A program made the translations under genes and the position numbers. This document shows, in pieces, positions 1-16,117 of a stretch of 64,000 nucleotides of DNA (positions within the stretch are counted from its first letter, which is position 1; every line of letters starts with the position of its first letter). Below the pieces are notes generated by a model. It saw only the letters and a list, made by a program, of their open reading frames with translations. It was not told where the DNA came from and searched no databases. Source of the stretch: Clostridium sp. 'deep sea' (GTDB taxonomy: Bacteria > Bacillota > UBA994 > PWPR01); the NCBI RefSeq assembly GCF_014931565.1, contig NZ_CP063353.1, positions 2,852,001-2,916,000 of the forward strand. Reading direction: 5' to 3'.

Positions 1-1
1 A

Positions 2-1207
2 AAGACTATTACCCAAGTAAAAAGAAAACCAACACCTCAGCCAGATGGGGTATCAAAAAGCTTTATTGTTAGATTCCCAATAGCTGAAAAACCAGATATC
101 TATATAAATTCTGTGCAAGTTGCAGAAGATGATATCGGTGTAAATGGCTTAGACAAAGACAGAAAATTTTACTTTAGCTATGGTAGCAACGTAATAGCAC
201 AAGATCAATCTGAACCTGTCCTAATATCTAGTGATGTAATAGAGGTTAGTTATAAAGGTCTTTATCCCATCATGGTAGTTGTAGATAGTCCGGAAGAAAT
301 TGAGAAGCGTAAGGCAAAAGAACCTGGTACTAGTGGAATCTATGAGAAGTTGGTAACAGAAACATCACTGGATACTGGCGATCAAGCTGTCGAGTTTGCA
401 GAAGGTCTAATATCTAAGTATGGGAATGTACCAGATAGAACTACTTTTAGAACTAATGTGAATGGGTTAAAAGCTGGACAATTACTAGCAATAAATAAGC
501 CTTTATACGGTTTAAATGAAAATTTTTTAATAGAGAGTGTAAATATACGTGCTAGTGGTTCAAGCAGTTTAGAGTACGATATTTCAGCCCTTGACGGCGC
601 TGCTTTAGGCGGATGGGAAGAGTTCTTTAAGGACTTACTTAAAGGACAAAGAGAATTTGTTATAGCTGAAAATGAGGTTATTATACTTCTTATATCTCTT
701 TCAGAGACATGGAAGTTTTCGCAAGAGTTAACGGTTGAGTTTATTAAGAACAAGACTCTAAATAATAACACGTTTACCTCAGTTAATGGTATGGATTTAT
801 ACACAAGTATAGGAAGTTCGGAAGAGGTGGGAGAAGTAATGGTTACAACAAACGCATTAAACTTATTAAGAGATGCATTGAATGGTGATAGCGTAAATGC
901 TGAAATTAATTATATAGCTATAGGTGATGATACTACTGCAGTTACAGGTAATGAAACTCAATTAGGTAATGAATTAAAGAGAGTTCCCATTACTTCACGC
1001 TCAAAATCTAATGATGGTGTGTTAGATACGGTTGCTGAATTACTTGATAGTGACGGAGCTTATAACATACGTGAAGTTGGTTTTATTGCTGGTGGTACAG
1101 ATACAGTTAATAGTGGAACATTAATATCTAGAGTTATCTACTCAAAAGATAAAACTACACTTGAATCACTAAGATTTAACGCAAAAAATACGATAAAGAG
1201 AGGGTGA
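2..1207 (+). CDS. Phage tail/baseplate hub-type protein, 5' end outside the window
   Basis: The frame is open from base 2, so the start codon lies left of the window; the internal GTG at 113 is not a start. About 401 residues are visible. The middle part (GLKAGQLLAINKPLYG followed by NFLIESVNI) resembles the C-terminal region of siphophage tail-hub proteins, where this segment precedes receptor-binding parts. The last 120 residues (from LNLLRDALNGD, with YIAIGDDTTAV and AYNIREVGF) resemble a phage tail-fibre or collar N-terminal module. Six bases separate it from the next tail gene, so they are probably co-transcribed. A structural tail role is fairly safe; the exact name is inferred. Confidence 0.65.
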   Translation, partial: KTITQVKRKPTPQPDGVSKSFIVRFPIAEKPDIYINSVQVAEDDIGVNGLDKDRKFYFSYGSNVIAQDQSEPVLISSDVIEVSYKGLYPIMVVVDSPEEIEKRKAKEPGTSGIYEKLVTETSLDTGDQAVEFAEGLISKYGNVPDRTTFRTNVNGLKAGQLLAINKPLYGLNENFLIESVNIRASGSSSLEYDISALDGAALGGWEEFFKDLLKGQREFVIAENEVIILLISLSETWKFSQELTVEFIKNKTLNNNTFTSVNGMDLYTSIGSSEEVGEVMVTTNALNLLRDALNGDSVNAEINYIAIGDDTTAVTGNETQLGNELKRVPITSRSKSNDGVLDTVAELLDSDGAYNIREVGFIAGGTDTVNSGTLISRVIYSKDKTTLESLRFNAKNTIKRG

Positions 1208-1213
1208 TTATAG

Positions 1214-1993
1214 TTGTATAACCCTACACAATGGCTCCCAAGGTTAAGGGAGTTTTTACTTAGGTACAAGCTAACATTAGTGCCAGGCACGACAGATACT
1301 TATGATTTCACTCTAATTGAGGGCGATGTGACCCAAGGGGGAACAGCAGCAAGCCCTGCAAATATGCAAAAGATTGAACAGGGTATAACAGATGCTCATG
1401 AGCATATAGCATTAACTAATAATCCTCATAATGTAACTGCTGAACAAATAGGATTAGACTCTATGGTATCAACTACAGGTGAAGTAGACAAGATTGTTAA
1501 AACTAACCCTGATGGTGATATTGCAGCGGGTCGATATTTAAAAGTTAGCAGTAATTATATAAGGTTTAATAATAATGTTTTAGAGGTAAGTTCTGATGGA
1601 ACTATTTGGAAAGGAGTAGGAGCATCTGTGTATAATAAATTTAATGTAATTAATTTTGAAGCAAGTTCATTACCTACAGCATTAACAACCATTGCAAGCT
1701 TTACAGGAAGCGGAATTATTAGAGAGATAGTGGCAACTAATACCTCTCAAATAAGTGGAGCATATAATATTTATTATTCAATCGATGGAGGGGTAGAGCA
1801 ACAGATAAGTAGACCAACTGCTACTAATTATGCGCTAGGAAAAGGATTAGCAGGTTCCACTTCATTTAATGGAGTTCATGGTTACGATTTGCCCGTTAAT
1901 TTAACTTTTAATTCTTCGTTCACGGTTAGAGCAAATGCTACAGGTTCAAATGTAAATTCGTTTAGTTCTAGTGTAAAATATAATTATGAGTAG
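1214..1993 (+). CDS. Phage tail fibre/appendage-like protein
   Basis: 259 residues, TTG start preceded by GAGAGGGTGA. The N-terminal third contains DFTLIEGDVTQGGTAASPANM and then a motif of the NPHNVTAEQIGLD type, which is typical of tail-fibre and tail-appendage proteins that link to the baseplate. The C-terminal half (from about residue 140) is rich in Ser, Thr, Asn and Gly with beta-strand character, as in receptor-binding tips. It sits between the hub-like gene and a small XkdW-like gene. The host receptor cannot be read from the sequence. Confidence 0.65.
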   Translation: MYNPTQWLPRLREFLLRYKLTLVPGTTDTYDFTLIEGDVTQGGTAASPANMQKIEQGITDAHEHIALTNNPHNVTAEQIGLDSMVSTTGEVDKIVKTNPDGDIAAGRYLKVSSNYIRFNNNVLEVSSDGTIWKGVGASVYNKFNVINFEASSLPTALTTIASFTGSGIIREIVATNTSQISGAYNIYYSIDGGVEQQISRPTATNYALGKGLAGSTSFNGVHGYDLPVNLTFNSSFTVRANATGSNVNSFSSSVKYNYE

Positions 1994-2001
1994 GTGAAAA
2001 T

Positions 2002-2409
2002 GTGTTAAAAATAATAGAAAATGAAATATTAATTGGTACAGATGACAATGCATACGTACATTATGGGTTTGTGACTAAAAAAGACGTATCGGTTGAAGGT
2101 AGCGTTATTAAAGTTAAATCACTAGAATTTAGCTTAGAGAATAAGCAGTATGAGGTTAACGTAAGTGATAATAGTGTAATTGGTTATGTATTAAATGATA
2201 CAAATAAAATTGGTGAATTTACAGAGGGTGTATTTACAGTAGATACAACTAATTTAACTGATATCAAATTAGAACTTGAAGGTGTGATTAAATATCTTAA
2301 GACTGAGAATGACACCTGGGTAGAATATACACCAGAACCACCTAAAAGTGAGATAGATAAACTTAAAAATCAAGTAGATCAATTGGCACTCGCAATTCTA
2401 ACAATCTAG
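2002..2409 (+). CDS. Small phage tail-region protein (XkdW-like position)
   Basis: 135 residues, GTG start eight bases after the previous stop, with a TAGGTGA ribosome site. The body is short beta-type sequence. The last 25 residues (SEIDKLKNQVDQLALAILT) form a heptad-like helix similar to the C-terminal coiled coil of XkdW-like proteins of Bacillus prophages. It lies directly before an XkdX-like gene, the usual XkdW-XkdX order. The family assignment rests on position and this C-terminal helix, so it is tentative. Confidence 0.5.
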   Translation: MLKIIENEILIGTDDNAYVHYGFVTKKDVSVEGSVIKVKSLEFSLENKQYEVNVSDNSVIGYVLNDTNKIGEFTEGVFTVDTTNLTDIKLELEGVIKYLKTENDTWVEYTPEPPKSEIDKLKNQVDQLALAILTI

Positions 2410-2421
2410 GGGGATAATATA

Positions 2422-2532
2422 ATGTACGAAGTATTACAACGACTATCAGCAAAAGGATTATTAACTGAAGCCATGAAACAAAAAGCCATATCACTTAACT
2501 GGATAACTGAACAAGAGGCTCAAACGCTCTAA
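2422..2532 (+). CDS. XkdX-family small phage protein
   Basis: 36 residues, ATG start with a GGGGGATAA ribosome site 13 bases upstream. The sequence KAISLNWITEQEAQTL matches the XkdX pattern, in which a short helix is followed by GWIT-E-EY near the C-terminus. XkdX proteins are found between tail and lysis genes in PBSX-type prophages; their molecular role is unknown. The stop codon overlaps a hairpin with a T-run (2522-2546), so the tail operon may end here before the lysis genes. Confidence 0.65.
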   Translation: MYEVLQRLSAKGLLTEAMKQKAISLNWITEQEAQTL

Positions 2533-2546
2533 ATGAGTGTTTTTTT
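2522..2546 (+). terminator. Hairpin terminator overlapping the xkdX-like stop
   Basis: AAACGCTC pairs with GAGTGTTT (one G-T pair) around a five-base loop and runs into seven or more T. It separates tail genes from the lysis cassette and may set their relative expression. Confidence 0.6.
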
Positions 2547-2572
2547 AATTTAAATAATATTGAGGTGTTAAG

Positions 2573-3022
2573 ATGAAAACTTTTTTAATGCAAGTATTTA
2601 AGAACGCTGATAGCCCAGCTATGTGGCTAGTTACAATTGCTGGAGGAGCATTCACAAGCTTAATTGGTGGGTATGACTCAATGGTAAAGATACTACTAAT
2701 ATTCATAGCTTTAGATTATATTAGCGGTATGATAGCTTCTATAATAGAGCATAAGCTTAGCAGTAAGGTTGGCTTTAAAGGTGTAGCTAAAAAAGTATTA
2801 ATATTGATGTTGGTAGTGATAGGGCACCAGGTTGATATACTTTTAGGATTTACAATTTTAAGGAGTGCAATTATTTCATTCTATATAGCTAATGAAATAA
2901 TATCAATCTTAGAGAACGTTAACCGCATGGGCTTAGAGACACCGAAAATCTTAAATATGATAATTGAGCTTTTACAAAAGAATGCAAACCCACCATTACC
3001 GGAGAATAAAGACAATGATTAA
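2573..3022 (+). CDS. Phage holin (holin_4/TcdE-like)
   Basis: 149 residues with four hydrophobic segments at about 15-33, 37-58, 70-90 and 92-112, and a charged tail. The motif NEIISILENVNRMGLETPKIL at 107-127 is the conserved end of the phage_holin_4 family (TcdE, BlhA relatives). Holins make membrane lesions that let the endolysin reach the wall. The start has an AGGTG ribosome site. The gene overlaps the amidase start by eight bases, which is the usual holin-endolysin coupling. Confidence 0.85.
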   Translation: MKTFLMQVFKNADSPAMWLVTIAGGAFTSLIGGYDSMVKILLIFIALDYISGMIASIIEHKLSSKVGFKGVAKKVLILMLVVIGHQVDILLGFTILRSAIISFYIANEIISILENVNRMGLETPKILNMIIELLQKNANPPLPENKDND

Positions 3023-3737
3023 AATAGCACTAGATCCAGGACACGGCCTTGATAGCAAGAATGGTGGCCAAGGAATGACAGAGTACGAGTTTAATTCTGC
3101 CGTTGCCGGTTATGCTCAAAAGTTACTTACCGAAGCTGGCTATGAGGTTGTACTAACCCAACCACTACATGCTAATACAGTAAGTCTATCTGAGCGTTTA
3201 AATATTGCTATTAAGAACGATGTTGACCTACTTATTAGTATTCATGCTGATTATAATAAAAGCCCTAATCCACGTGGTTTTTGGGGCTTTTATTGGCATG
3301 AAAGTGAGAAGGGTAAACAGTTTGCTGAGATATGGGAGAGACACGCAACAAAGCATTTTCCACATCCAGCCAGAGGTCTTAGAGAATGCAATCTTGGGAA
3401 GTGGCCAAACTTCTATATGACACGTGAAACTCATAGGGCTGGTATACCAGCTATTTTAATTGAACATGGATTTATGTCTAACCCGGAAGATTTGAAAATA
3501 TTAAAATCTGATAGCTTTAGGCAAATAGCAGCAATTACTATAGTAGATGCTGTTAATGAAATGTTTGGAGTACAAGTTGATTGGCGAGTGGAGATTGGTA
3601 AAAATGCATTAAATGAGTTAGTGGATAGAGGGTTAGTAGCAAATCCGGAGCAGATTGAAAACTTATATAAACCTCTACCTGCGTGGTTTCAACTTGAAAT
3701 GTTTAATAGAATAGTAAAACTTAGTGAGTCATCTTAA
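3015..3737 (+). CDS. N-acetylmuramoyl-L-alanine amidase, phage endolysin (Amidase_3)
   Basis: 240 residues. I place the start at 3015 (MIKIALDPGHG) rather than at an upstream ATG at 2964, because GGAG lies at the right distance and the protein then begins at the catalytic domain. Zinc-ligand positions of Amidase_3 are visible: His10 in DPGHG, Glu23 in the E-Y-E-F-N motif, His77 in SIHAD and the catalytic Glu150 in LIEHGF. The last 60 residues (IGKNALNELVDRGLVANPEQ) look like the short C-terminal module seen in clostridial phage amidases. It cleaves the lactyl-amide bond between MurNAc and L-Ala for lysis. Confidence 0.9.
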   Translation: MIKIALDPGHGLDSKNGGQGMTEYEFNSAVAGYAQKLLTEAGYEVVLTQPLHANTVSLSERLNIAIKNDVDLLISIHADYNKSPNPRGFWGFYWHESEKGKQFAEIWERHATKHFPHPARGLRECNLGKWPNFYMTRETHRAGIPAILIEHGFMSNPEDLKILKSDSFRQIAAITIVDAVNEMFGVQVDWRVEIGKNALNELVDRGLVANPEQIENLYKPLPAWFQLEMFNRIVKLSESS

Positions 3738-3754
3738 TTGATGGCTCTTTTTTT
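3726..3754 (+). terminator. Terminator after the lysis cassette
   Basis: GAGTCATC pairs with GATGGCTC (one G-T pair) over a six-base loop and continues into a run of T. The stem overlaps the end of the amidase gene. Confidence 0.75.
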
Positions 3755-3817
3755 ATTTTAAAGTATTTATATGCTTTGAAGTAATGGAGTATGAAAATAA
3801 TAATTAAGTAACTCTAA

Positions 3818-3848
3818 GAGATTCCACCTTAGCGGGTGGCTCTTTTTT
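3818..3848 (+). terminator. Second hairpin terminator downstream of the lysis genes
   Basis: CCACC pairs with GGTGG, flanked by GAG and CTC/TCT, then seven T. Two terminators in a row shield the following cargo genes from phage late transcription, which suggests that those genes have their own promoter. Confidence 0.6.
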
Positions 3849-4009
3849 TGGTTTGCTGAAGAGAGGATTTTATTTACTATTTTTATAAAATACTATAATA
3901 GGTTATCTTTTGTACATAAAAAGGTCTTGTAAAATATTCCAATATAATGTAATCTTAAATTGGTATATGTACATATTATAAATTGAAAGTTTACTTGTGA
4001 GGTGCTGGA

Positions 4010-4627
4010 ATGAATACATTAGTGCCAAAGATGGTATCTATTAGTCTAGAGTTATCAGATATAGATCTAAAAAGCATAGAGAAGTGTATAAGTAAGTTAA
4101 AAGAAGAGTATGGTTTTGAATCAGTTGAGCTAAACGAAGATAATATAGTGATGGAAAAAGGATCACCAGTAAGTAAGGTAGCTATTACAAAAGAGAAGAT
4201 GCAATTTTTAATCTTTTTATATTACATAAATGATGATAAAGATAATGATAAATTAATTTTAGTGTCAAAATTTTTAGAAACCATTAATTATAAAATAGAA
4301 TCAGCCCAATTTAGTAGTCTTAATAAAATAGAGTTAGTATATTTTGATGAGTTAGAAAATTTGACTGGATTTGATAACCACAAATACTTTGATGAAATTA
4401 ATAAATTAACTATAACTATTAATGGAAAGAATAATAATAACGATCTAAAAACAGAAATCGGTATAGGTGAAAGTTATGTATTCTATTCAATCAGCAATAA
4501 ATTAAAAAAAAGTTTACAGGATAGGAATGAATTGAATAGTTTACTTATTAGTAAAAAAGAACTACTTAATGAAGAATTCAATAAGTTGTGGAATGGGAAT
4601 ATCCAGAAATTTATATCTAGTTTTTAG
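4010..4627 (+). CDS. Prophage cargo protein of unknown function, first gene of a pair
   Basis: 205 residues, ATG with a GAGGTG ribosome site. I do not recognise the family. It is soluble, Lys/Glu/Asn-rich, with no signal peptide or membrane segment. The N-terminus alternates strands and helices (VSISLELSD, KCISKLKEEYGFESVEL). The C-terminus is a long helix (LKKSLQDRNELNSLLISK). It ends 17 bases before the next gene and almost certainly forms an operon with it. Location after the lysis cassette, behind two terminators and at the prophage edge, is typical for lysogenic-conversion or anti-phage genes. A sensor or antitoxin-like role for the next gene is only a guess. Confidence 0.6.
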   Translation: MNTLVPKMVSISLELSDIDLKSIEKCISKLKEEYGFESVELNEDNIVMEKGSPVSKVAITKEKMQFLIFLYYINDDKDNDKLILVSKFLETINYKIESAQFSSLNKIELVYFDELENLTGFDNHKYFDEINKLTITINGKNNNNDLKTEIGIGESYVFYSISNKLKKSLQDRNELNSLLISKKELLNEEFNKLWNGNIQKFISSF

Positions 4628-4644
4628 AAGGGAAAATTTTACTT

Positions 4645-5433
4645 ATGTCGAAACACGCTATGTTGTATAAAGTTTATAGTACTAAAGCTCTAGCAAATAA
4701 GAATGAAGCGGAAATAAAAGAATCATTAATTTATGATATTGAAAATTGTATGAATAATTCAAGACTACTATATCAGGCGATGTTTGACATGCCAGATATA
4801 GTAAAAAAGCAAATTGAAGAAGAATCATTAGGAGTTTTAGAAAAAGCTCAAGAATACCTAGAGCTAACTCGAAAAGAAGTAATCGTAAGTAAATCTGAAA
4901 GAAGTGTCTACAATAATCCTTTTGGGAGTATAATGAAGTATATACCTAAAAAGGCGGGATTTATTATGAGTGGTATTTTTTCTGATATTCCTTACATGTC
5001 AGTTGGAGAGATGGAAGACTCATTAAAATCTATTACTAGGTTAACTCCTTTAAAATGCTTTTTTGTAACAGTATTAACCACTTTAACTATGGCATTTAAT
5101 GGCTTCCCTATTGCTGTTAGATCTTTAATCGGTCTTTCAATAATTACCTTTATAACAAGAGTAATGAAAGCATTTCGTTTAGGGGAGGATAAAGCTGTAG
5201 CAACAGGGAATGCAGTAGTAAAACTCGTTTGGACATACTTGTTACTGTGTGCGTTTTTTATCTTATCTCCTGTTATTTCTGAAGATTATTTGCCAAAAGG
5301 TACTCTTTTTATTATTGGGAATTATGTGCTTATTTATAATGAGGTTCAATGTATAGTTGGGTGTGCCAATAAAATGGGACTGTATGTTCCTGAAGTATTA
5401 AAGAAAATTGGAAAAAAAGATGTTGAGTTATAG
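4645..5433 (+). CDS. Membrane protein with holin-like C-terminal domain and a cytosolic N-terminal region
   Basis: 262 residues. Residues 1-130 are hydrophilic and mostly helical. Residues about 139-155, 156-174, 193-212 and 219-238 are hydrophobic. The end (232-252, NEVQCIVGC then NKMGLYVPEVL) lines up with residues 107-127 of the prophage holin at 2573: N, E, I, N, M-G-L, P and L are shared, 10 identities of 21 without gaps apart from the frame of comparison. The four-segment layout also matches. So this looks like a holin_4-type membrane domain fused to a long soluble N-terminal domain. Its partner gene at 4010 lies just upstream. Lysis accessory, superinfection exclusion or an abortive-infection effector are all possible. 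Confidence 0.6.
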   Translation: MSKHAMLYKVYSTKALANKNEAEIKESLIYDIENCMNNSRLLYQAMFDMPDIVKKQIEEESLGVLEKAQEYLELTRKEVIVSKSERSVYNNPFGSIMKYIPKKAGFIMSGIFSDIPYMSVGEMEDSLKSITRLTPLKCFFVTVLTTLTMAFNGFPIAVRSLIGLSIITFITRVMKAFRLGEDKAVATGNAVVKLVWTYLLLCAFFILSPVISEDYLPKGTLFIIGNYVLIYNEVQCIVGCANKMGLYVPEVLKKIGKKDVEL

Positions 5434-5516
5434 TTAAAGACCAGCAAAGCCAATCAGCTAAGCTGCTCTTGAGGTTGAATATGATTTTATTAAATATCTT
5501 CTGTCATAAATGTATT

Positions 5517-5537
5517 AAGAGCTTAGGCTCTTTTTTG
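5517..5537 (+). terminator. Terminator after the cargo gene pair
   Basis: AAGAGC and GCTCTT form a perfect stem with a TTAG loop followed by T. It closes the 4010-5433 transcription unit. Confidence 0.75.
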
Positions 5538-5604
5538 TTATATGCAGGATTTGGAAGTTTGGTGTGTAATAGATATGTAAGAAATATTTAGGGAGGTAGC
5601 AATA

Positions 5605-6513
5605 TTGAAGTATATTCTGCTAGATACAAATTTATATTTAGATTTGGTCTCAAACAGATCTGTAAGTATCAACAAAAAGTGCAAAGATATTTTGCTTAAA
5701 TTGTTACAACATGATAACTGTAAGTTAGTTATACCCGAAGTTGTAATACATGAATTTGTAAGAAATGTTGATTCAATACTAAGTATAGCTAAGGATAATT
5801 TAGGTAGCACTAGAGAACTATTAAAGAGTTGTTATTGGGTAGAATATTCTAGCTATCCTATTAATACATATGAGCAAGAAATAGACGGTATTAAAAAGTA
5901 TCTGAAAAAGCTTAAAGTTTTATTAGTTAATGAATTTGATGATATAGAGAATAAAATGAAACAATGGTTTAGAGTTAATATTTTTAAGAATGCAAATTCT
6001 ATTACGGTAAGAACCAATGATTTACTTACTAAAAAGGTAATGATGAGAAGAATGCATAAATTACCCCCATTCCACAAGAAGCAAACGGAATTCGGTGATG
6101 GATTGATATTAGAAACTATTTTAAACATTAAAGAACTAATACCAGAGTTTGATAAAAGGGATAAGTTGTACTTTATAACTAGAAATTACTCAGATTTTTG
6201 TGACAGTGATAATAAGGAAAAACTTCATAATCGCATTATAGATAGTATTAGTTTGGCTGGCTTAAATGATAATATAGTTTATTCTCCTTATTTTTATAAG
6301 ACTGTAAAAGATGTTTTTGGTATCGAAATTGCCGAGGTGGAAAAATTAGAAGAAGAGATGGCACGACGTGAGGAGGAATATTTATCTGATTTAGCAGCAT
6401 ATGAAGATTATGTTACTGATAAACTTTTTGATTACCCCCATAATGAATATATTATTAATAATATGATAAATAAAGAAAAATTTGGTAAAATGCAAAAGAG
6501 TCATCATTCTTAG
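5605..6513 (+). CDS. PIN-like domain protein (possible RNase), prophage cargo
   Basis: 302 residues, TTG start with GGGAGG ribosome site at the right spacing. The N-terminus LLDTNLYLDL carries the first PIN acidic residue (Asp7), VIHEF the second (Glu50), FGDGLILE the third (Asp165), and FITRNYSDF the last (Asp197). This is the layout of PIN_4/DUF4935-like proteins, which are metal-dependent RNases or predicted RNases. The last 100 residues form a Glu-rich helical extension. No antitoxin-sized gene is next to it, so it is not a standard VapBC pair. Separate terminators isolate it from the preceding pair. A role in defence is inferred from the family and the prophage-edge position. Confidence 0.65.
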   Translation: MKYILLDTNLYLDLVSNRSVSINKKCKDILLKLLQHDNCKLVIPEVVIHEFVRNVDSILSIAKDNLGSTRELLKSCYWVEYSSYPINTYEQEIDGIKKYLKKLKVLLVNEFDDIENKMKQWFRVNIFKNANSITVRTNDLLTKKVMMRRMHKLPPFHKKQTEFGDGLILETILNIKELIPEFDKRDKLYFITRNYSDFCDSDNKEKLHNRIIDSISLAGLNDNIVYSPYFYKTVKDVFGIEIAEVEKLEEEMARREEEYLSDLAAYEDYVTDKLFDYPHNEYIINNMINKEKFGKMQKSHHS

Positions 6514-6529
6514 ATGTCTCTTTTTTTTT
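6496..6529 (+). terminator. Terminator after the PIN protein gene
   Basis: AAGAGTCATC pairs imperfectly with GATGTCTCTT around a seven-base loop and is followed by a long T-run. The last stem-forming codons belong to the PIN gene. Confidence 0.65.
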
Positions 6530-6690
6530 ACCCTTTTTTGCCGACATTTTGCCTACGGTGAATAGGTTTTTCAACAGATATTACAGACTATAATAAATTG
6601 TGATAAATTTTTTAACCCTCAAAATATATTGTAATTACAACGTTTTATAGTTGTAGTAAATCACAGGAAATAATAATAAGTTTTTTACTT
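6530..6690. other. Putative prophage right attachment region
   Basis: No gene is visible. The segment separates phage cargo from the truncated host ATPase gene. It contains a six-base inverted repeat (TACAAC ... GTTGTA, about 6637-6656) that could be part of a recombinase site. In the frame of the host gene a stop occurs at 6657-6659, and ATPase-like residues begin about 6684. The crossover point should lie between these marks. The matching left site is outside the window, so the core cannot be defined. Confidence 0.45.
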
Positions 6691-6695
6691 TAAAG

Positions 6696-7061
6696 ATGTG
6701 TATGATGTCTGGCACTAAACTCTCTGAAGAGTTACTTATGAGATTAATTATTAGCGCATTCCCCATTATGGTTTTTAAAGCCCAATTGCCAGATAGCTCT
6801 CGCAAATATATGCAAGTATTTGAGGCCTTAAAATTTAATCCTGTTACTAATATTTTAACAGGTAATATGTTATTTCAATATTTGGTTGAGGGTAGAGTGT
6901 TAAGTGAAGACAGTTCAAAAATAATAAGAATGATTGGCAAACATCAACAGCTAAATAAAATAAGTAATGATTTGGCTAATAGGCTAATTACAAATGGCTG
7001 CGACCTAAAGCTTGTAAAAAAATATGCAAACCCGCAGTGGAATGCTGGAGAGGTAAACTAA
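6696..7061 (+). pseudogene. 3' fragment of a CpaF/TadA-type pilus ATPase gene, cut by the prophage
   Basis: 121 residues from the first ATG. The sequence SGTKLSEELLMRLI, AFPIMVFKAQLPDSSRK, then a C-terminal stretch with NDLANRLITNGC, resembles the last third of CpaF-type secretion ATPases of clostridial Tad systems, downstream of the Walker boxes. No Walker A or B motif is present. The position directly before two TadB/TadC-type genes is exactly where cpaF belongs. Upstream sequence is prophage. I infer that integration split the gene, leaving this piece without a native start; excision would restore it. A short peptide could still be made, but it could not act as an ATPase. Confidence 0.7.
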
Positions 7062-7063
7062 AA

Positions 7064-7984
7064 ATGAAGTATATAATATTTTTTACTACATTTGTAGGAA
7101 TATCTATTTTATTTGGCATATCTATTTCGGATATTATTAAAGAACTAGCCAAAATAAGATGGTCAAAAGCAGTTCAGCTTACAACAACCAGTCACAGTTT
7201 AATGATAAATAATTCATCGATTAGTAGGCTTAAAAAGTATCTTTATAAAGTAGAACAAGCACTTTTATCAGCCAACATTAAGCTTAAAGCAGACACCGTA
7301 ATTCAAATTTCAATTATTCTTTTGTTATTTGGAGTAGGCTTAGGAATGTACTTTGGCAATTTATTGTTGGCTATTGTACTAGGCTTAGGGTTCTTTTTTT
7401 TACCCTACCAGTTTATTCAATACCTGCAATACAGATATCTAAAAGCACTAAATGATAGCATTAATTTAGGATTGTCTTTGGTAACTAATACCTATGTGCA
7501 AATTGAGGATTTAGTAAGCTCTATTAAGCAAAATGTAATGAGAGTAAATGAGCCCTTAAAGCAAGTATTGCTCGAATTTATTACAGATATAGAAATGATA
7601 AACCCTGATATAAACAAAGCAATTTTTAATATGAGAGCCAAAATAAACAATAAATACTTTTATAGGTGGTGTGATATTTTAATTCAGTGCCAAGATGATC
7701 GAGACCTCAGAAATGTCTTGCCCGCTATTATTACAGAAATGGCTGATGTAAGAAAACACCAAGCAGAGTACGACACAAAGATTTATGCTGTATATAAAGA
7801 CTATTTTAGTGTTTTACTGCTAACCTTAGTCAGTTTTCCGTTACTTAGAGTCTTGAATACAAATTGGTATAACATTTTAATGAACACCCCTTTAGGTAAA
7901 ATAATAGTTGCTATAACCATAACAATAATGTTTATTAGCTCTTATTATGTATTAAAATTAAGTAAGCCAATAAGCATTTTATAG
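7064..7984 (+). CDS. Tad/Flp pilus inner-membrane protein TadB-like (T2SSF domain)
   Basis: 306 residues. I choose ATG 7064 with GGAGAGG upstream; an in-frame ATG at 7037 would overlap the ATPase fragment and lacks a ribosome site. A membrane segment opens the protein (KYIIFFTTFVGISILFG). A central pair lies at about residues 85-125, and two segments close it (VLLLTLVSFPLLRV, IIVAITITIMFISSYYV). The part between carries the helical T2SSF domain. TadB and TadC form the platform that couples the ATPase to pilin assembly. It is followed at once by a TadC-like gene. Confidence 0.75.
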   Translation: MKYIIFFTTFVGISILFGISISDIIKELAKIRWSKAVQLTTTSHSLMINNSSISRLKKYLYKVEQALLSANIKLKADTVIQISIILLLFGVGLGMYFGNLLLAIVLGLGFFFLPYQFIQYLQYRYLKALNDSINLGLSLVTNTYVQIEDLVSSIKQNVMRVNEPLKQVLLEFITDIEMINPDINKAIFNMRAKINNKYFYRWCDILIQCQDDRDLRNVLPAIITEMADVRKHQAEYDTKIYAVYKDYFSVLLLTLVSFPLLRVLNTNWYNILMNTPLGKIIVAITITIMFISSYYVLKLSKPISIL

Positions 7985-7996
7985 GGAGTGATTTAG

Positions 7997-8872
7997 ATAA
8001 CAATACTACTAAAAATAATTATCTTCTTTACAATTGCTTTTGGATTTTATAGTCTCTTAACATTTGTAATTGTAACAACCGAAAGCCGAGCAGTTAAAAT
8101 GATAAAGCTAATGAAAGCCAAAGATGAAAGAAGCCTGTTTACAAAGTATGTAGAATATTTAGCTAAATATTTAAGTAAGTATATTTACTTAGAGAAGTTT
8201 ACAGCTCAAAAACTGCAAAAAGACCTCGAAAAAGTAGGCTATAAAAATAAAACCTGCCAGCAATATGTAGCAGAAATTATTGTAATTGCTTTTACTTTTG
8301 TGGCTCTTACTCTAGGCATATGGATTTTAGGACTCTACATTGTAAGCATAGGCTGTGGCTTAGTTGGCTTAGCCTTTACGATAAATAAAGGCTATGAATT
8401 ACCTGAAAAAATTACTGAAATCAATAGCCAAATTGAGTTTGAGCTACCTCAATTTATTAGGTCTTTTTCCCAGGCCTTAGAGGGCGAAAAAGATATTATT
8501 AAAATATTGGAAAAGTATCGACAAATTTGTGGACAAGCATTTAGTTATGACCTAGACGTATTAATAACTGATTTAAAAACAGGTAACATGGAAGAGGCGC
8601 TTTACAAGTTTGATGAAAGGCTTAATATTCCAATAGTCACTTCTTTTGTTTCTGGCTTAATAGGTACTGCTAAGGGAATTGATCAAAAGGTATTCTTTTA
8701 CATACTAGAGAGAGACATAAAAATGTTATCTCTTAAAAACCTAAACAAAGCCCTAGAAAAAAGGCCTAACAAAATTAAAATTGCAACTACAGGCATCGCA
8801 ATAAGCTTTATAGTAATACTAACGTATCCCTTAATAATTAATATAATAACAAGCTTAAAATTCTTAGAATAA
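7997..8872 (+). CDS. Tad/Flp pilus inner-membrane protein TadC-like (T2SSF domain), probable ATA start
   Basis: The first ATG in this frame is 8099, but the frame is open from 7997, just after a TAG. The extra 34 residues (LLKIIIFFTIAFGFYSLL and onward) form the N-terminal membrane helix expected of TadC. GGGAGTG at 7984-7990 sits six bases before ATA 7997, so an AUA start is likely; a start at a second ATA (8003) is also possible. With it the protein has 291 residues. The T2SSF domain lies around residues 135-260, followed by a last membrane helix. Partner of the preceding TadB-like protein. Confidence 0.7.
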   Translation: MTILLKIIIFFTIAFGFYSLLTFVIVTTESRAVKMIKLMKAKDERSLFTKYVEYLAKYLSKYIYLEKFTAQKLQKDLEKVGYKNKTCQQYVAEIIVIAFTFVALTLGIWILGLYIVSIGCGLVGLAFTINKGYELPEKITEINSQIEFELPQFIRSFSQALEGEKDIIKILEKYRQICGQAFSYDLDVLITDLKTGNMEEALYKFDERLNIPIVTSFVSGLIGTAKGIDQKVFFYILERDIKMLSLKNLNKALEKRPNKIKIATTGIAISFIVILTYPLIINIITSLKFLE

Positions 8873-8887: not shown

Positions 8888-9094
8888 ATGAAACCAATAA
8901 ATTTTATAAAAAAATGGATAGCTAGTTTCTGCAATAGAGGTGGGGTTTTTGCTGAAACTGTAATGAAAATTGGTTTAGTAGTTATAGTTGGTGGTTTAGT
9001 ATTAGTGGTATTAAAAACAGCAATTCCTGATTTATTCACTAAGCTAATTTTAAAAATAAAGACAACCTTAGAGATAACATGCATACTTTATTAA
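8888..9094 (+). CDS. Small prepilin-like protein (Flp/TadE type)
   Basis: 68 residues. A short basic leader (residues 1-17) ends in NRGGVFAETVMKIGL. Cleavage after the first Gly would leave Glu at position +5, followed by a hydrophobic helix (VVIVGGLVLVVL). This is the type IV prepilin peptidase signature. The ribosome site is AAGGAGA. The stop overlaps the next gene by 16 bases. It is the best candidate for the main pilin subunit of this cluster. The prepilin peptidase itself is not in the window. Confidence 0.65.
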   Translation: MKPINFIKKWIASFCNRGGVFAETVMKIGLVVIVGGLVLVVLKTAIPDLFTKLILKIKTTLEITCILY

Positions 9095-9522
9095 AGCTTA
9101 AATCAGATCAACGAGGTGGTTTGTATATCTCCGATTTATTTAAAATTGTAATTGCTTTAAGCCTTATAATGTCATTTATTTATTTGCCAAAACCATTTAT
9201 TCAGTATATAAAGTTAACCCATATGTGTGAAACAATTGTGCACAGTATTGAAAGCAATGGTGCTGTTAATGAACATGTAGAGAGTTTAATTAAGGATCTT
9301 AAAGATGCCTATAATATTGAACCAATTATTAATATAGAGGGGCCATTTAAAGATGTAAATGGTGAGAGACGAATACAGCTTAAAAACCAATTTTCAGTGC
9401 AGGTAAGTGATACAGTTAAGCTAGTTATTTATCGGCCTACTTTTACCAATAGTATTGTAATTAATCTTCCTATAAGTAAAAAGATGATAGGAGTAGGACA
9501 TGTCTATTGGAAAATCTTTTAA
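9079..9522 (+). CDS. Pseudopilin-like protein (DUF4320-like)
   Basis: 147 residues. A short leader (SDQRGG) precedes a hydrophobic helix (FKIVIALSLIMSFIYL) and then a mixed globular domain. This is the layout of minor pilins. The usual Glu at +5 after the Gly cleavage point is absent. It resembles DUF4320 proteins, which accompany Tad-like clusters of Firmicutes. It overlaps both neighbours (16 and 23 bases), so translation is probably coupled and the stoichiometry controlled. Confidence 0.55.
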   Translation: MHTLLKLKSDQRGGLYISDLFKIVIALSLIMSFIYLPKPFIQYIKLTHMCETIVHSIESNGAVNEHVESLIKDLKDAYNIEPIINIEGPFKDVNGERRIQLKNQFSVQVSDTVKLVIYRPTFTNSIVINLPISKKMIGVGHVYWKIF

Positions 9523-9964
9523 TAAAAAAAACAACGCTGGCTTTATGTATCTGCAGTTAATACTTATTATAGGTATTTTTGTGGTTTTAGTACTAGAAAT
9601 TTATCGGGACTATGAGCTACATAGAACTGTACAAAATACTATGCAACGTTTAGTGAATATGTCAGTAAGCATAGCTATCTCAGAAGATACCAGAGAAGAC
9701 TTTGCCGTAATAAATGAAGCAAAGGCTAAAGAAGTTTTTAATACCTTATTGATAACAGAGCTTGGTTTAAATGCTGATAATAGTTTTGGTGATGATTATC
9801 GCCTTAATATCACTAGTTTTATTATAGTTAAACAGCCTCCTACAATAGAGGTAAAGGGAGAGATTATCGCAAGCCCATTTTTATTGCAACAAAGCATAGT
9901 TAAAAATGTAAAAGTTAAGCTACCGTTTAAAGCAAAGTCACGTACTCAACATATAGGCTATTGA
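9500..9964 (+). CDS. Pseudopilin-like protein
   Basis: 154 residues. A basic leader (GKSFNKKNNAG) is followed by FMYLQLILIIGIFVVLVLEI, a prepilin-type helix with Gln instead of Glu at +5, then a soluble domain of about 110 residues. The pattern suits a TadE/TadF-like minor pilin. It is joined to the preceding gene by a 23-base overlap and lies 18 bases before the SLH gene with a GGAG ribosome site. Confidence 0.55.
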   Translation: MSIGKSFNKKNNAGFMYLQLILIIGIFVVLVLEIYRDYELHRTVQNTMQRLVNMSVSIAISEDTREDFAVINEAKAKEVFNTLLITELGLNADNSFGDDYRLNITSFIIVKQPPTIEVKGEIIASPFLLQQSIVKNVKVKLPFKAKSRTQHIGY

Positions 9965-9982
9965 GGTAATAAAGGAGAACTT

Positions 9983-11389
9983 ATGAAAAGAATTAAAGCA
10001 ATAGTTATACTAATTGTTATGTTAACAACTGGGTTTTTTAACACTAATATTACATATGCAGAAAAGCAGTTTTCAGATATAAGCGGCCATTGGGCAAAAC
10101 AATCTATTATAGATTTAAACAAATACGGCATGATCAGTGGCTATTCCGATGGTACATTTAAACCAGATGCCACAGTAAGTAGGGCAGAACTAATTGCTTG
10201 GCTAACTAGAATAATGAAACATAAAATGGGTGAAGAAAAATACCAAGTTTCTTCAACAAAACATGATACAACATTATATAAATTAAGCGTTCCTATGAGT
10301 CTGCAGAGTTACTATGAGGACTATGCAAAGTTAAGTTTGCCAAACGGTTATTGGGCGAAACAAGCCATAGAAGAGGGTAAGTGGCTAGGTATATTACCAT
10401 ACATGGGTATAGGGCAAAAGAAGCTGTATTTAAACAAAGAGGACTATTACCAGCCTATAACCAGGGGTGAAGTAGCCTACTGTGTTACGAGAGCTGCCAG
10501 ATACTTTAAGGACGAGTTCCCCGAGGCAAATAGACTCTTTTTTAGCTATATCTACGATAAAGTAAAAGATATTCACAATAGTTGGGAGTACCCTCTACAG
10601 TGTCAAATTGCCTATATACAGGGGTTTTTTGGGGGTTATGGAGATAATACCTTTAAGCCAGAAAAGCCAATTACGAGAGCTGAAACCACAACCGTTTTGA
10701 TGAAGCTATTAGAGCCAAATAGAGCCAATCCCTTTAGGCTTGAAGATAAATCAATTCAGTTAGAACATTTATACTATATGCCGACCTGGGAGAATGGTAG
10801 CACTATAGCCACTATGAAGCCAGATAAACCAATGACGCTATATGCCCCTTACTACAGGCTAGAAGATAAGGTGGTTTATGAGGTCTTTGAGTTAGCTAAA
10901 ATAATGGAGAAGGCTTCCGCTGAAATGCATAACTATGCTGAAGGTGGATATAGAAGGTTTTCGTATAATAATAAAAATGGAATGTTATCAATTAGTTTTT
11001 CTGAAAGTTATGAAGATTACAAATTTGCATTGGATAACAATGAATATCTAAAAGACACAGTATTTGGTGATTTTAGTATGGACATGGGGTATTTAAGAAA
11101 TAGTCCAATAAGAGATAACAGAGATAACATGAATGGCTGTATTTATGAGTTTAAGTTAAACCCCCATTGGCAGATGTTAAAAAAGTATCACTGGGATACT
11201 ATTAAAGAACTCTGCGAGTTCCTATTTGCAAAAGAAGCAGATGTATTATTGAATAAGATTATTGAACATAGCAAAAAATCCTCATCTGAGTTTACAACAG
11301 ACTATTTTTACCTTAATAACAGAAAGGTGATATTTAAAGTAGGTTCTGATGGTATTTTAGTTATTAATATCGAAATTAAACAAGTATAA
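9983..11389 (+). CDS. Secreted protein with three S-layer-homology domains
   Basis: 468 residues. A signal peptide (about 1-28, ending NITYA) is followed by three SLH units: about 30-82 (FSDISGHWAK, GYSDGTFKPD, SRAELIAWL), 115-170 (YWAKQAIEEGKWLGI, TRGEVAYCV, degenerate) and 190-245 (GYGDNTFKPEKPITRAE). SLH domains bind pyruvylated wall polymers. Residues 250-468 are an unrecognised globular domain. Being in the pilus operon between pseudopilins and a giant secreted protein, it probably anchors pilus or surface structures to the wall. Confidence 0.8.
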   Translation: MKRIKAIVILIVMLTTGFFNTNITYAEKQFSDISGHWAKQSIIDLNKYGMISGYSDGTFKPDATVSRAELIAWLTRIMKHKMGEEKYQVSSTKHDTTLYKLSVPMSLQSYYEDYAKLSLPNGYWAKQAIEEGKWLGILPYMGIGQKKLYLNKEDYYQPITRGEVAYCVTRAARYFKDEFPEANRLFFSYIYDKVKDIHNSWEYPLQCQIAYIQGFFGGYGDNTFKPEKPITRAETTTVLMKLLEPNRANPFRLEDKSIQLEHLYYMPTWENGSTIATMKPDKPMTLYAPYYRLEDKVVYEVFELAKIMEKASAEMHNYAEGGYRRFSYNNKNGMLSISFSESYEDYKFALDNNEYLKDTVFGDFSMDMGYLRNSPIRDNRDNMNGCIYEFKLNPHWQMLKKYHWDTIKELCEFLFAKEADVLLNKIIEHSKKSSSEFTTDYFYLNNRKVIFKVGSDGILVINIEIKQV

Positions 11390-11407: not shown

Positions 11408-14400
11408 ATGAGAAAAAAAATAACAGTACTATTAGTACTTGTTTTATTAATAAATGCTCTCACGCCAAGAGTGGTAATAGGTGCCAGTAATAACCCTAAT
11501 GTATATCAAGGCATATCTGCTCAAATAAGCTATAGCTCTATTCAAGAAGAGTTGCCCATAGGTATATCCCAGTATAACGCTAAAAACATGCCAATTAATA
11601 CAGAGCTATGGCAAGATAAACACCTAGTAGTTTACGGAGACTATAGCACGGTTAACTATGGATCAGCCAACGTTAAGTACTACCACGAAGATGACCCCAA
11701 TAACTTAGAGTCCTATTACTTTAGGGATAGTGAGGGTAAGAAGTGTGAGTATCGCTATTTAGGTTATACACGAGAGGGTAATAAATTCCCAAACCCTAAG
11801 TTCCCAGCAGATTACCGTACAGATATTCCCCCAGAGGATATAACTTGGTACTCCTACCCTTGGAGGTTGGGAAAGCATTATATGAGAGAAATTAGTTATA
11901 CAAATAAAGAAGTAATAGCATATAAGTCTAATAGTAATAAAGCAATAGAGTATATAAATAATTCCTTAGATTGGTATATAAATAGAGCTATTGATGGACG
12001 TAATAATCAAAAATTAAAATCAAATGAAATTATGGGATTAGAAAAATTTTATTTTTTCAACGTAGACTCGCCACCTTCGGCATTACACCCAGGACGAGGC
12101 AGAATGATAAATCATTCCTACTCACGTAATAAAGACTATTACTGGACGTTTAGTATTCCAGCTGTAAAGGGTAAAAACCAAACCCCAATAGAGGCAAGAT
12201 GTACCATACTAAATAAGAATGAATTAGTTTACGATACTGGAGAGCAAAAAAAGATTGCAAAAGTAGAGGTTATAGGATTACTAAAAGACGAAGAGTTTTA
12301 CGATAATGTTTCCTATGGAATGTATAGTGGTAAAGAAGTAGATGCTTATGAGCGTTCAGTAAACTATTGTAGAGAAGATATTAAAGAATGGAATATTACC
12401 CTTAACACCCCGGGTGGACAAGCCTTAAAGGCTATTAAAAAAAGCAACAATGGTATCAATGGTGTTAAAAATGTTTTTTACGTGGAGCTTAGTAGAGACT
12501 TAGTGGATTCGGGTACAGTAGAGTTCCATGCTTCATTGTTTATAGATTATAAGACCAAAGAAAAAAGTAATACAGCAACAGCTATGGATAATGCCGATAT
12601 TACAGCCAAAGCAAGCCTTTTTTCTTATTTTGAGATTACTAACATAATAGAAAAACAAGGTTATTCGGCTTCTGCGCTTAACTATCAAGACGCTTCGGTA
12701 GGAGATATAGCTAAATATGAATGGACAATTGTAAACATGACCACTTTAGAGCAACATAGCTTTAATTACCCCATTGCAATAACAAGCAATGTGGAAAAAG
12801 AGATATTTAACTTTACTAATCCCTACATTCAAGCTAATGAAGCAGACTGTAGCTTTGAAGTAACACAAACAGTCTCTAATGATAAGGGAATGAGTAATAG
12901 CTATAAACAAACAATTAACTTTACCCGAAGTTTAGAGCCACCTGCTATTGTAGTACCAGATTGTAGTATCCCCAAAAAGGCAATTGATATGGTAGCGTTT
13001 AAACCCTCAGATAATACAGATTTAAGCGAAGCTATGAGTAAGAGTGTTACTGTAGATGGTAGAGAGGTGGATTACAATAGATTTTTTTCAGGAAACTATA
13101 CCTTTTGCGAAACAATTGGTCTGTTAGGTGCAAACGACAAGCTCGTGAAGGTTAGTGTTAATTATCAAAGTATAGATAATCAAGAGAGTCATTTTACAAC
13201 TTGGGTTTATGTGTACACTAGTAAACCACGCTTGGATTATAGTATTTCTGGCACTACTAAAGTAAATAGAAAAATAGAGCTGACTAATGTATCGGAGTCT
13301 TGTAATGATGACTATGTTTTAAACAAGTACCCCATTAGCTATAGTTGGCAAATAGAAGCCCTTGAGGGCGATATGGCAGACCTAAAAATGCGAGCAGGCT
13401 ACACCAATAATGTAAATAAAAAAGTATTTCTAACTAAAAAAGAGGGGCTGTATCGCTTTACCCTTAAAGGCAATAACGGCTTGCGAGATGGTGACCCCTA
13501 TTCAATAGATATACCTATTTATAAAGACTATAATCCAGCAGTTATCTTTAATGTTTGGAATAATGTATTGGCTCGTAATGAACAGCTCCATATTACGGTA
13601 GAGGCTGTCAGCTTAGATGATGATATTATTACCACTCAAAGCCTTAAAATACTCTATGATAAAGACGAAGATGGAGAGTTTGAAACAGAGCTTAAGAGCT
13701 ATGATAATGCCAAAAATTACGATGGATATATCCCTACAGAATTAGGCAGTTATCAAATGGTTTATGAGGTACATGAGGATTTTGGACAGGATACCTTGTT
13801 AGAGTTTATTAAACCAGAAGATGAACGATTTACTATCGAAAAACGGGAGTTTCATGTTGAAAACTTAAGCCCTATGACCAAGATGTATGTAGATATCCCT
13901 TTAGAATTTCCAGAAGCAGATATTTATATTTTAACTGACCCCAACTTAAACCTTAACAAAATTGGCGAGGTTAAGGGTAAACGTATAGATATAGTTAATA
14001 ATTTAAGACAGAGTAGCATTGTACCAGAGGTTAATATTTGGGATTTACATACCTATGTTTATTCTCAAGAGGTAACTAGAACAAGAAACACGGGTGGTAG
14101 TTACCCTTCATCAAGCATTAGCTATAGCAATAATGGCTATAGTGGTACGTTACATAAGTACCGAACGGTAAACGATGATTACAAGGTGGATAGAGGTAAG
14201 TATGTAACTAAAACGGATAGTAAAACTGCTACTGGTTCAATCAGCTCAACAGCATGGTCGGAATACGATGCCGATGGCAATTTGGTAGATTCCTATTCCC
14301 CAGGTACATATTCCATTAGCTACAACTCAGGTGGTTATAGTGGTACTCTTTATAAAACAAGTGTTAAAAAACTTGGATCTAAAACTGTAAAGCATAGTGA

Positions 14401-16117
14401 TGGTTCAAAAACACAGTATCAATATTATAGAGGTTATTATAGTGGCACTGTAACCAAAACCTATGAGGTATGGGTTGCAAAATGGGTAAGCTATGACGAT
14501 TACACAGGATACTATCGTGGAACAGTTTATAAACATGTAAAACAACCCTTTAACGATATCTTTAGAGACACCAGTGAGAAATACATAATCTATATTGCCG
14601 ATGGGAGCATTACCGGTAACAGTGACTTAAGTATGCTTAAAAATAGAAGCGATAGTAAGATTATTTATTCCAGTTCAGTAGCTAACAAGAATAATGTTCA
14701 GCATGACTTTTTTATTGAATATACAGGCAATGTAGATTCAATCTTAGCTGAAGCCCTAGAGATAATTAAAAATGAAAATCCCTATGAGCTTCAGTATACC
14801 TTACTGCTAAATAATAGTTTAAATATTAAGTTTGCTGATATTGATGCTGAAAATGACCCACTAGACAAACTAACATACCAGGTTGTACATGACCCAAATG
14901 TTTTTGATAACAACACAGGTATAGCTAGTTTTGCCAATAGTAGTTATAGTGATGGTAACTATCAGGAGATAAGTAAATCTAACCTAGACCTTAACTTTAC
15001 TAAAAAAGGTAAGTACCTAGTTTATAGAAAGATTACAGATAAACCTATTGATCATGAAAACAAAGGTTTGCATTCCAATGAGCCTAAATTAGAGGTTTTA
15101 GTACATGAAAAGCCCATAGCAGACTTTGATTTACAATGGCTATATAACTACAACACCCAAGTCTACGACACTACTTGGTTAGACAAAAGCTACGATCCAG
15201 ATTTTCAATTTAGCAGAGCAGATAAAGGCATTATTGACCGTAAAATAAGGTTTAGAAAAGTAGGTAAACCTTGGTCTTATAAAATACCTGAGACCTTAGA
15301 TGTTGGTAGTTATCAGCTAGAGTATCGTGTAAAAGATGTGTTTGCAGTATGGAGTGATGTAAAGTCCTTTAACTTTAGCTTACAAGCAAACCCACCTGTA
15401 GAGGTTGAATATACCATTAACTATGTTTGTAATAATGAGGTGTTTTATAGCGAGACCATAACAGAAATAATGCAAGGAATACCTAGCAAAACTAAAACCT
15501 TTTATGCCAGAGATTTTAATCCACTATATAAATTAGCAGATGCTCACTCAAAGATTGCTAGGGTAAGTTACCAACGTCCTAAAACAACTATTGAGTTTAA
15601 CTATAACTTTGTAGCAACAACTGAGGCAAAAATAAACATAACACTTAGTGGCAAAAGGCTGAGACCTGGCAATATTATTGCCAGTGGTTACGGAATAAAT
15701 ATAAATGCTTTAGCTAATATTACGGTAGGCTATAACAAAAACTTGCTCAGTGGCACACCCCAAATGCAGGTCATTTGGCTTGAAAACAAACCCTATGAGT
15801 GGACCTACAATAATATCTACCAGGTGGCTAATAACTATTCTATGGAATGGATTAGTGGCCCTATAGATAGCTGTGAGTTTACGTTAGAGCCCAATAACGA
15901 TAGCAATATTAAGGCCCGTAAAATCTATAGCCCTGTTGAATTAACAGATGGAGAATATGACTGTATTGTTAAATTTTACGGAGTGAAATATCCCACATGG
16001 TATATTAATAGTAAGGGTAATGTAATTAGGGGTGAGGATTTAGAATTAACCTATCAAGAGACATTTATAATTACAATAGATGGTAGTATGTATGATGATA
16101 TTAATGTGATTTCATAA
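11408..16117 (+). CDS. Very large secreted protein of the pilus cluster
   Basis: 1569 residues with a signal peptide (about 1-26). No transmembrane anchor or sortase motif is seen at the C-terminus. Most of the chain is beta-rich, with PKD/Ig-like stretches such as SVGDIAKYEWTIVN and KPIADFDLQWLYN. Residues about 888-1047 are rich in Tyr, Gly, Ser and Lys and repeat a short motif: GYSGTLHK, GYSGTLYK, YYSGTVTK, YYRGTVYK. A segment near 1330-1400 (TINYVCNNEVFY) resembles MucBP-like domains. It follows the SLH gene by 18 bases and ends at a strong terminator. I infer a surface adhesin or pilus-associated protein; the ligand is unknown. Confidence 0.7.
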   Translation: MRKKITVLLVLVLLINALTPRVVIGASNNPNVYQGISAQISYSSIQEELPIGISQYNAKNMPINTELWQDKHLVVYGDYSTVNYGSANVKYYHEDDPNNLESYYFRDSEGKKCEYRYLGYTREGNKFPNPKFPADYRTDIPPEDITWYSYPWRLGKHYMREISYTNKEVIAYKSNSNKAIEYINNSLDWYINRAIDGRNNQKLKSNEIMGLEKFYFFNVDSPPSALHPGRGRMINHSYSRNKDYYWTFSIPAVKGKNQTPIEARCTILNKNELVYDTGEQKKIAKVEVIGLLKDEEFYDNVSYGMYSGKEVDAYERSVNYCREDIKEWNITLNTPGGQALKAIKKSNNGINGVKNVFYVELSRDLVDSGTVEFHASLFIDYKTKEKSNTATAMDNADITAKASLFSYFEITNIIEKQGYSASALNYQDASVGDIAKYEWTIVNMTTLEQHSFNYPIAITSNVEKEIFNFTNPYIQANEADCSFEVTQTVSNDKGMSNSYKQTINFTRSLEPPAIVVPDCSIPKKAIDMVAFKPSDNTDLSEAMSKSVTVDGREVDYNRFFSGNYTFCETIGLLGANDKLVKVSVNYQSIDNQESHFTTWVYVYTSKPRLDYSISGTTKVNRKIELTNVSESCNDDYVLNKYPISYSWQIEALEGDMADLKMRAGYTNNVNKKVFLTKKEGLYRFTLKGNNGLRDGDPYSIDIPIYKDYNPAVIFNVWNNVLARNEQLHITVEAVSLDDDIITTQSLKILYDKDEDGEFETELKSYDNAKNYDGYIPTELGSYQMVYEVHEDFGQDTLLEFIKPEDERFTIEKREFHVENLSPMTKMYVDIPLEFPEADIYILTDPNLNLNKIGEVKGKRIDIVNNLRQSSIVPEVNIWDLHTYVYSQEVTRTRNTGGSYPSSSISYSNNGYSGTLHKYRTVNDDYKVDRGKYVTKTDSKTATGSISSTAWSEYDADGNLVDSYSPGTYSISYNSGGYSGTLYKTSVKKLGSKTVKHSDGSKTQYQYYRGYYSGTVTKTYEVWVAKWVSYDDYTGYYRGTVYKHVKQPFNDIFRDTSEKYIIYIADGSITGNSDLSMLKNRSDSKIIYSSSVANKNNVQHDFFIEYTGNVDSILAEALEIIKNENPYELQYTLLLNNSLNIKFADIDAENDPLDKLTYQVVHDPNVFDNNTGIASFANSSYSDGNYQEISKSNLDLNFTKKGKYLVYRKITDKPIDHENKGLHSNEPKLEVLVHEKPIADFDLQWLYNYNTQVYDTTWLDKSYDPDFQFSRADKGIIDRKIRFRKVGKPWSYKIPETLDVGSYQLEYRVKDVFAVWSDVKSFNFSLQANPPVEVEYTINYVCNNEVFYSETITEIMQGIPSKTKTFYARDFNPLYKLADAHSKIARVSYQRPKTTIEFNYNFVATTEAKINITLSGKRLRPGNIIASGYGININALANITVGYNKNLLSGTPQMQVIWLENKPYEWTYNNIYQVANNYSMEWISGPIDSCEFTLEPNNDSNIKARKIYSPVELTDGEYDCIVKFYGVKYPTWYINSKGNVIRGEDLELTYQETFIITIDGSMYDDINVIS

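Follow-up and report, generated by a model that had tools for sequence, protein, structure and literature searches.

A temperate prophage splits a CpaF-type ATPase gene of a Tad-like pilus cluster in Clostridium sp. 'deep sea'

The genome of Clostridium sp. 'deep sea' is a single closed contig of 3,831,732 bp (NZ_CP063353.1). In the 64,000-nucleotide stretch analysed here (the window, genome positions 2,852,001–2,916,000), the end of a gene for a CpaF-type ATPase lies directly against prophage DNA. Where is the rest of this gene, can it be put back together, and is its interruption an accident of phage integration, a switch that the host can use, or a permanent loss? The most economical explanation, to which we assign a probability of about 0.9, is that a temperate phage with a tyrosine integrase uses a 14-bp site in the ATPase gene, and that the disruption is incidental and reversible.

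A gene in two parts

The 3' fragment of the ATPase gene is an open reading frame on the plus strand at window positions 6696–7061. It begins MCMMSGTKLSEELL, comprises the last 121 of 482 codons (residues 362–482 of the protein obtained by joining the two parts) and aligns with the C-terminal end of CpaF-type ATPases. The initial annotation, given for positions 6530–7061, had described a C-terminal third of the ATPase joined to prophage sequence. A C-terminal piece does adjoin the prophage, but it amounts to about a quarter of the protein, and the first 166 bp or so of that span (6530–6695) belong to the attP arm of the prophage.

The far end of the prophage, to which the initial annotation had pointed for the missing 5' part and a repeated core, lies outside the window and holds both. 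The 5' part occupies genome positions 2821045–2822232 (9045–10232 of the flanking locus, L005), matches Pfam T2SSE at 107 bits and contains a Walker A motif; up to the end of the core it runs from 2821045 to 2822141 (L005:9045–10141). Beside its end is the stop codon of the gene for a tyrosine integrase, which lies on the minus strand. An unrelated gene at this upstream flank is ruled out, as the sequence found there is the 5' part of the same ATPase gene.

The two junctions share the 14-bp core ATGTGTATGATGTC, identical at 14 of 14 positions in attL (genome 2,822,128; 2822128–2822141) and attR (genome 2,858,696; window 6696–6709, plus strand), where it encodes the residues MCMMS of the ATPase. 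The cores are 36,568 bp apart, with the 5' part of the gene upstream of the 3' part. Exactly two copies of the core exist in the 3.83-Mb genome, and no further copy appears when one mismatch is allowed. A shared word of at least 14 bp is rare by chance, arising in 1 of 2000 dinucleotide-shuffled versions of the 300-bp regions at the two junctions.

When the flanks are joined computationally at the core they give a single in-frame protein of 482 residues, and both halves of the gene are free of frameshifts and stops. The predicted attB reads, from flank to flank, ...GACAGAATATTAACT-ATGTGTATGATGTC-TGGCACTAAACTC..., and the proposal that precise excision would restore the ATPase is thus borne out on paper. 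Uninterrupted homologues are colinear with the joined protein across the junction in a genome of the same genus (71% identity) and in one of the same family (52%). More unbroken homologues, with 50, 49 and 37% identity, occur in metagenome-assembled genomes named Clostridiales, Oscillospiraceae and Eubacteriaceae, respectively. The core falls within a conserved coding motif, TMCMMSGTKLSE, and 12 or 13 of its 14 bases are identical in four homologues. The prophage splitting a CpaF-type ATPase gene, as first noticed from the sequence, is therefore confirmed as real and well defined.

The phage and its attachment sites

The whole prophage extends from 2822128 to 2858695 (36,568 bp). Its right end fills window positions 1–6695 on the plus strand with tail genes, a holin gene (2573–3022), an amidase endolysin gene (2964–3737), a second holin-like gene with a long N-terminal extension (4645–5433) and a PIN-domain gene (PIN_12; 5605–6513) right beside attR. 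One prophage thus carries two differing holin-family proteins. The PIN_12 gene is probably phage cargo, and it gave no clear match in a defence library.

Elsewhere in the prophage, frames are open for a repressor, an antirepressor, a DNA polymerase, a helicase-primase, a second helicase, the large terminase, portal, protease, capsid, neck and tail proteins and the tape measure, as they are for the holin and the endolysin. The large terminase shares 73% identity with its counterpart in Geobacillus phage GBSV1. The repressor candidate (L005:11468–13318) is a fusion of 617 aa, combining three HTH domains, an ImmA-like peptidase domain and zinc ribbons. Since all core modules have open frames, this temperate tailed phage looks complete, and it is probably still active.

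The tyrosine integrase adjoining attL (phrog_1) has an arm-binding domain (Arm-DNA-bind_4), a SAM-like domain (SAM_3) and a catalytic domain (Phage_integrase). A 74-aa Xis-like HTH protein is encoded at L005:14724, and it has kin in related elements located at rlmD (described later in the text). Two 15-bp repeats are found on the phage side only. The first, TTGTAATTACAACGT, is at window 6629–6643 (no strand assigned) and recurs in the left arm at position 2822162 of the genome, the offsets being −67 and +34. The second, CATTTTGCCTACGGT, is at window 6545–6559 (plus strand) and again in the left arm at genome position 2822206, with offsets of −151 and +78 and a partial third copy at genome 2822220. 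In attP the repeats would enclose the core in nested fashion, as the arm sites of an integrase are expected to do, and we infer this function for them. Neither an excised circle nor a sequence bearing attB came to light. The two exact attP patterns found no match among viral contigs, where the records of this species may be absent, and none of the viral contigs carries a half of cpaF.

The identical 14-bp cores, the restored frame and the complete-looking phage together point to site-specific integration of the ordinary kind, with a coding sequence as its target, which on paper can be reversed. The phage-encoded integrase would have placed the phage in the 14-bp site of the CpaF-type (TadA/VirB11-like) ATPase gene, dividing it in the lysogen into a left fragment of 395 residues and a separate C-terminal piece. 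Excision between the cores by the integrase and Xis, presumably on induction, would rebuild the exact 482-codon gene.

What the lysogen may lose

The 395-aa open reading frame of the left fragment consists of 366 native residues followed by 29 encoded by the phage. It was first proposed that no pilus could be assembled for want of the Walker motifs, but Walker A (GATSSGKT), Walker B and the His box all survive in this fragment. Could the insertion then be neutral, the left fragment with its phage-encoded tail still being a working ATPase? The retained motifs would allow it. In solved CpaF structures, however, the homology extends far beyond the break, up to about residue 381 of the chain; the missing C-terminal region is conserved in all homologues aligned; and the 29-residue tail has no clear match to the lost stretch and does not replace it. 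A working truncated enzyme is accordingly very improbable. Incidental disruption by the phage remains the preferred explanation, and the ATPase is most likely inactive in the lysogen because a conserved C-terminal part is lost, a different reason from the one originally given. From this we infer the loss of the pilus.

Another ATPase might stand in for the split one. A second, complete CpaF of 423 aa is encoded in its own Tad-like locus at 1.98 Mb, with CpaE-like and TadB-like neighbours, and a PilB gene is found at 0.47 Mb. The possibility that a complete cpaF exists elsewhere in the genome, raised at the outset as an objection, is thus true as far as it goes, but the protein is a paralogue with 29% identity to the split ATPase and not the same gene. 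An intact copy of the split gene is ruled out, this paralogue and PilB being all that the genome offers. Substitution by the CpaF paralogue is possible though unlikely because of the low identity.

The split gene belongs to a cluster that was initially described as a Tad pilus. The ATPase is indeed of the CpaF/TadA type, and the best solved relatives of its intact homologue are CpaF proteins, but the system is divergent from a typical Tad pilus. The TadA model TIGR03819 scores 113.7 bits, below its cut-off of 373, and the CpaB model TIGR03177 scores 46.6 bits against a cut-off of 71. The CpaE-like protein is assigned by position, with no family match. The TadB- and TadC-like membrane proteins have no match to Pfam T2SSF and are placed by position and size, and for this reason we call the cluster 'Tad-like'. 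On the plus strand, downstream of the ATPase fragment, are the TadB-like membrane protein (7037–7984; an open frame, 54% identical to its homologue in the same genus, with no Pfam match) and the TadC-like membrane protein (8099–8872, named by position, with homology extending upstream to about 7997). These are followed at 8888–9964 by a small pilin-like membrane protein of 68 aa with no Pfam match, a DUF4320 protein and a third small, pseudopilin-like protein. Next come a surface protein with an S-layer-homology-like start (9983–11389) and a secreted surface protein of 1569 aa (11408–16117), both with homologues in the clusters of relatives. The gene order from the CpaE-like gene through the surface proteins is identical in the same-genus genome.

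Just upstream of the pilus cluster, at L005:2639–6145 (genome 2814639–2818145), lies a conjugation module with TrbL/VirB6-like, PrgI-like and VirB4-like genes; the same-genus genome carries an ABC transporter in its place. The VirB4-like gene is divided into frames of 204 and 577 aa. It was considered as a pseudogene and this was rejected, as the gene of a relative (locus L071) is split in the same way (221 and 591 aa), and the second frame has its own ribosome-binding site, which also counts against a pseudogene.

The remainder of the pilus cluster had been taken as intact. Its downstream frames are open, but the start region of tadC (window 7985–8105) is anomalous and intactness is not certain. 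A GTG at 7988 is followed by an in-frame TAG at 7994–7996, upstream of the first ATG; the sequence is GTG-ATT-TAG-ATA here and GTG-AAT-CAG-ATA in the same-genus gene. In both genomes the ATA that follows lies at the usual distance from a ribosome-binding site. The tadC frame may be stopped at codon 3, or the two genomes may share a rare start codon, ATA. This TAG, where the relative has CAG, is what favours a fixed knock-out, in which the phage can no longer excise, or the pilus cluster is already decaying, and the gene has simply been lost. The anomaly may, however, be a mere question of start site, the core modules of the phage are all open and the att sites are perfect, so that a fixed loss appears unlikely.

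Choice of site and known precedents

Related integrases, at E values up to 1e-70, are present in 7 of 398 genomes of the phylum, that of Clostridium sp. 'deep sea' included; the same-genus relative has none. The nearest of those in other phylum genomes are 58–59% identical and located at the 3' end of rlmD (rumA). Three of the integrase's nearest kin, and likewise one viral contig, are situated at rlmD and none is at cpaF; no instance of the same phage family in cpaF of another species was found among the 398 genomes. Both ends could be located for one such element, of 15 kb, in genome G241 (locus L061, about 2299258–2314073). It carries genes for a related integrase and an Xis-like protein, lies at the 3' end of rlmD between 15-bp border repeats with the core ACATACGGGACATGT, and supplies a replacement end for rlmD. 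By eye the cpaF core had seemed to resemble the end of rlmD, but this was dropped because the true rlmD core is in a different register.

In the elements at rlmD, the target gene, the core and the integrase are oriented as in the present prophage, and the Xis-like gene is similar. These elements differ in effect: there the last rlmD codons are swapped and the gene stays whole, whereas here cpaF is truncated and acquires a foreign tail of 29 codons. With one case found, the use of cpaF appears to be a shift of target in this integrase lineage rather than a conserved arrangement.

Precedents for split genes that are rebuilt by excision are well known. The comK prophages of Listeria monocytogenes (A118, phi10403S) undergo regulated excision without lysis, which rebuilds comK (PMC6872733). 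They are likewise siphovirus-type prophages, of about 40 kb, within a coding sequence that precise excision restores, but their target is a competence regulator, not a pilus ATPase, and regulated excision is known for them, whereas for the present prophage it is a hypothesis. In Bacillus, SP-beta in spsM and skin in sigK are a prophage and a prophage-like element whose excision reconstitutes the split gene (PMC4191935, PMC5025042); both are tied to sporulation, a link of which there is no sign here. The comYC prophages of Streptococcus and Lactococcus also interrupt a gene whose product belongs to a type IV-pilus-like machine, hitting the major competence pilin in several species, and have been explained as a block to transformation (PMC4774983). 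Their target is a pilin and is hit recurrently; a single case in a CpaF-type ATPase, with no recurrence found, is seen here.

Should the present prophage be counted with these as a case of active lysogeny? The initial annotation had likened it to the comK phages and put forward a switch as conjecture, and such it remains. A host condition would then regulate excision, restoring the ATPase and switching the pilus on, in a subpopulation or a particular state, without lysis, and re-integration would switch it off. The precise in-frame restoration, the intact integrase and Xis-like gene, the unbroken frames of both ATPase halves and the precedents (PMC6872733, PMC4191935) are in keeping with such a switch. 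A recent insertion would also leave the frame unbroken, however, and the phage retains a full lytic set. Related insertions are seen only at rlmD 3' ends, so that the cpaF site is not a maintained feature of the integrase lineage, and the same-genus relative lacks a related integrase. The start region of tadC is doubtful. There is no sign of regulation or of benefit to the host, and what supports a switch is limited to reversibility. Active lysogeny is therefore quite unlikely, and incidental, reversible disruption is preferred.

Each element of this picture has a clear precedent in the literature, save the target: none of the open papers searched describes a CpaF-type ATPase gene split by a prophage. 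A pilus assembly ATPase thus joins the host genes split by excisable prophages, namely comK, comYC, sigK, spsM and hlb. An integrase lineage with kin at the harmless 3' end of rlmD here occupies a costly coding site, and the exact attB/attP pair is now defined and can be tested by PCR. If regulated excision were to prove true, carriage of the phage would control surface pili in Clostridium sp. 'deep sea'.
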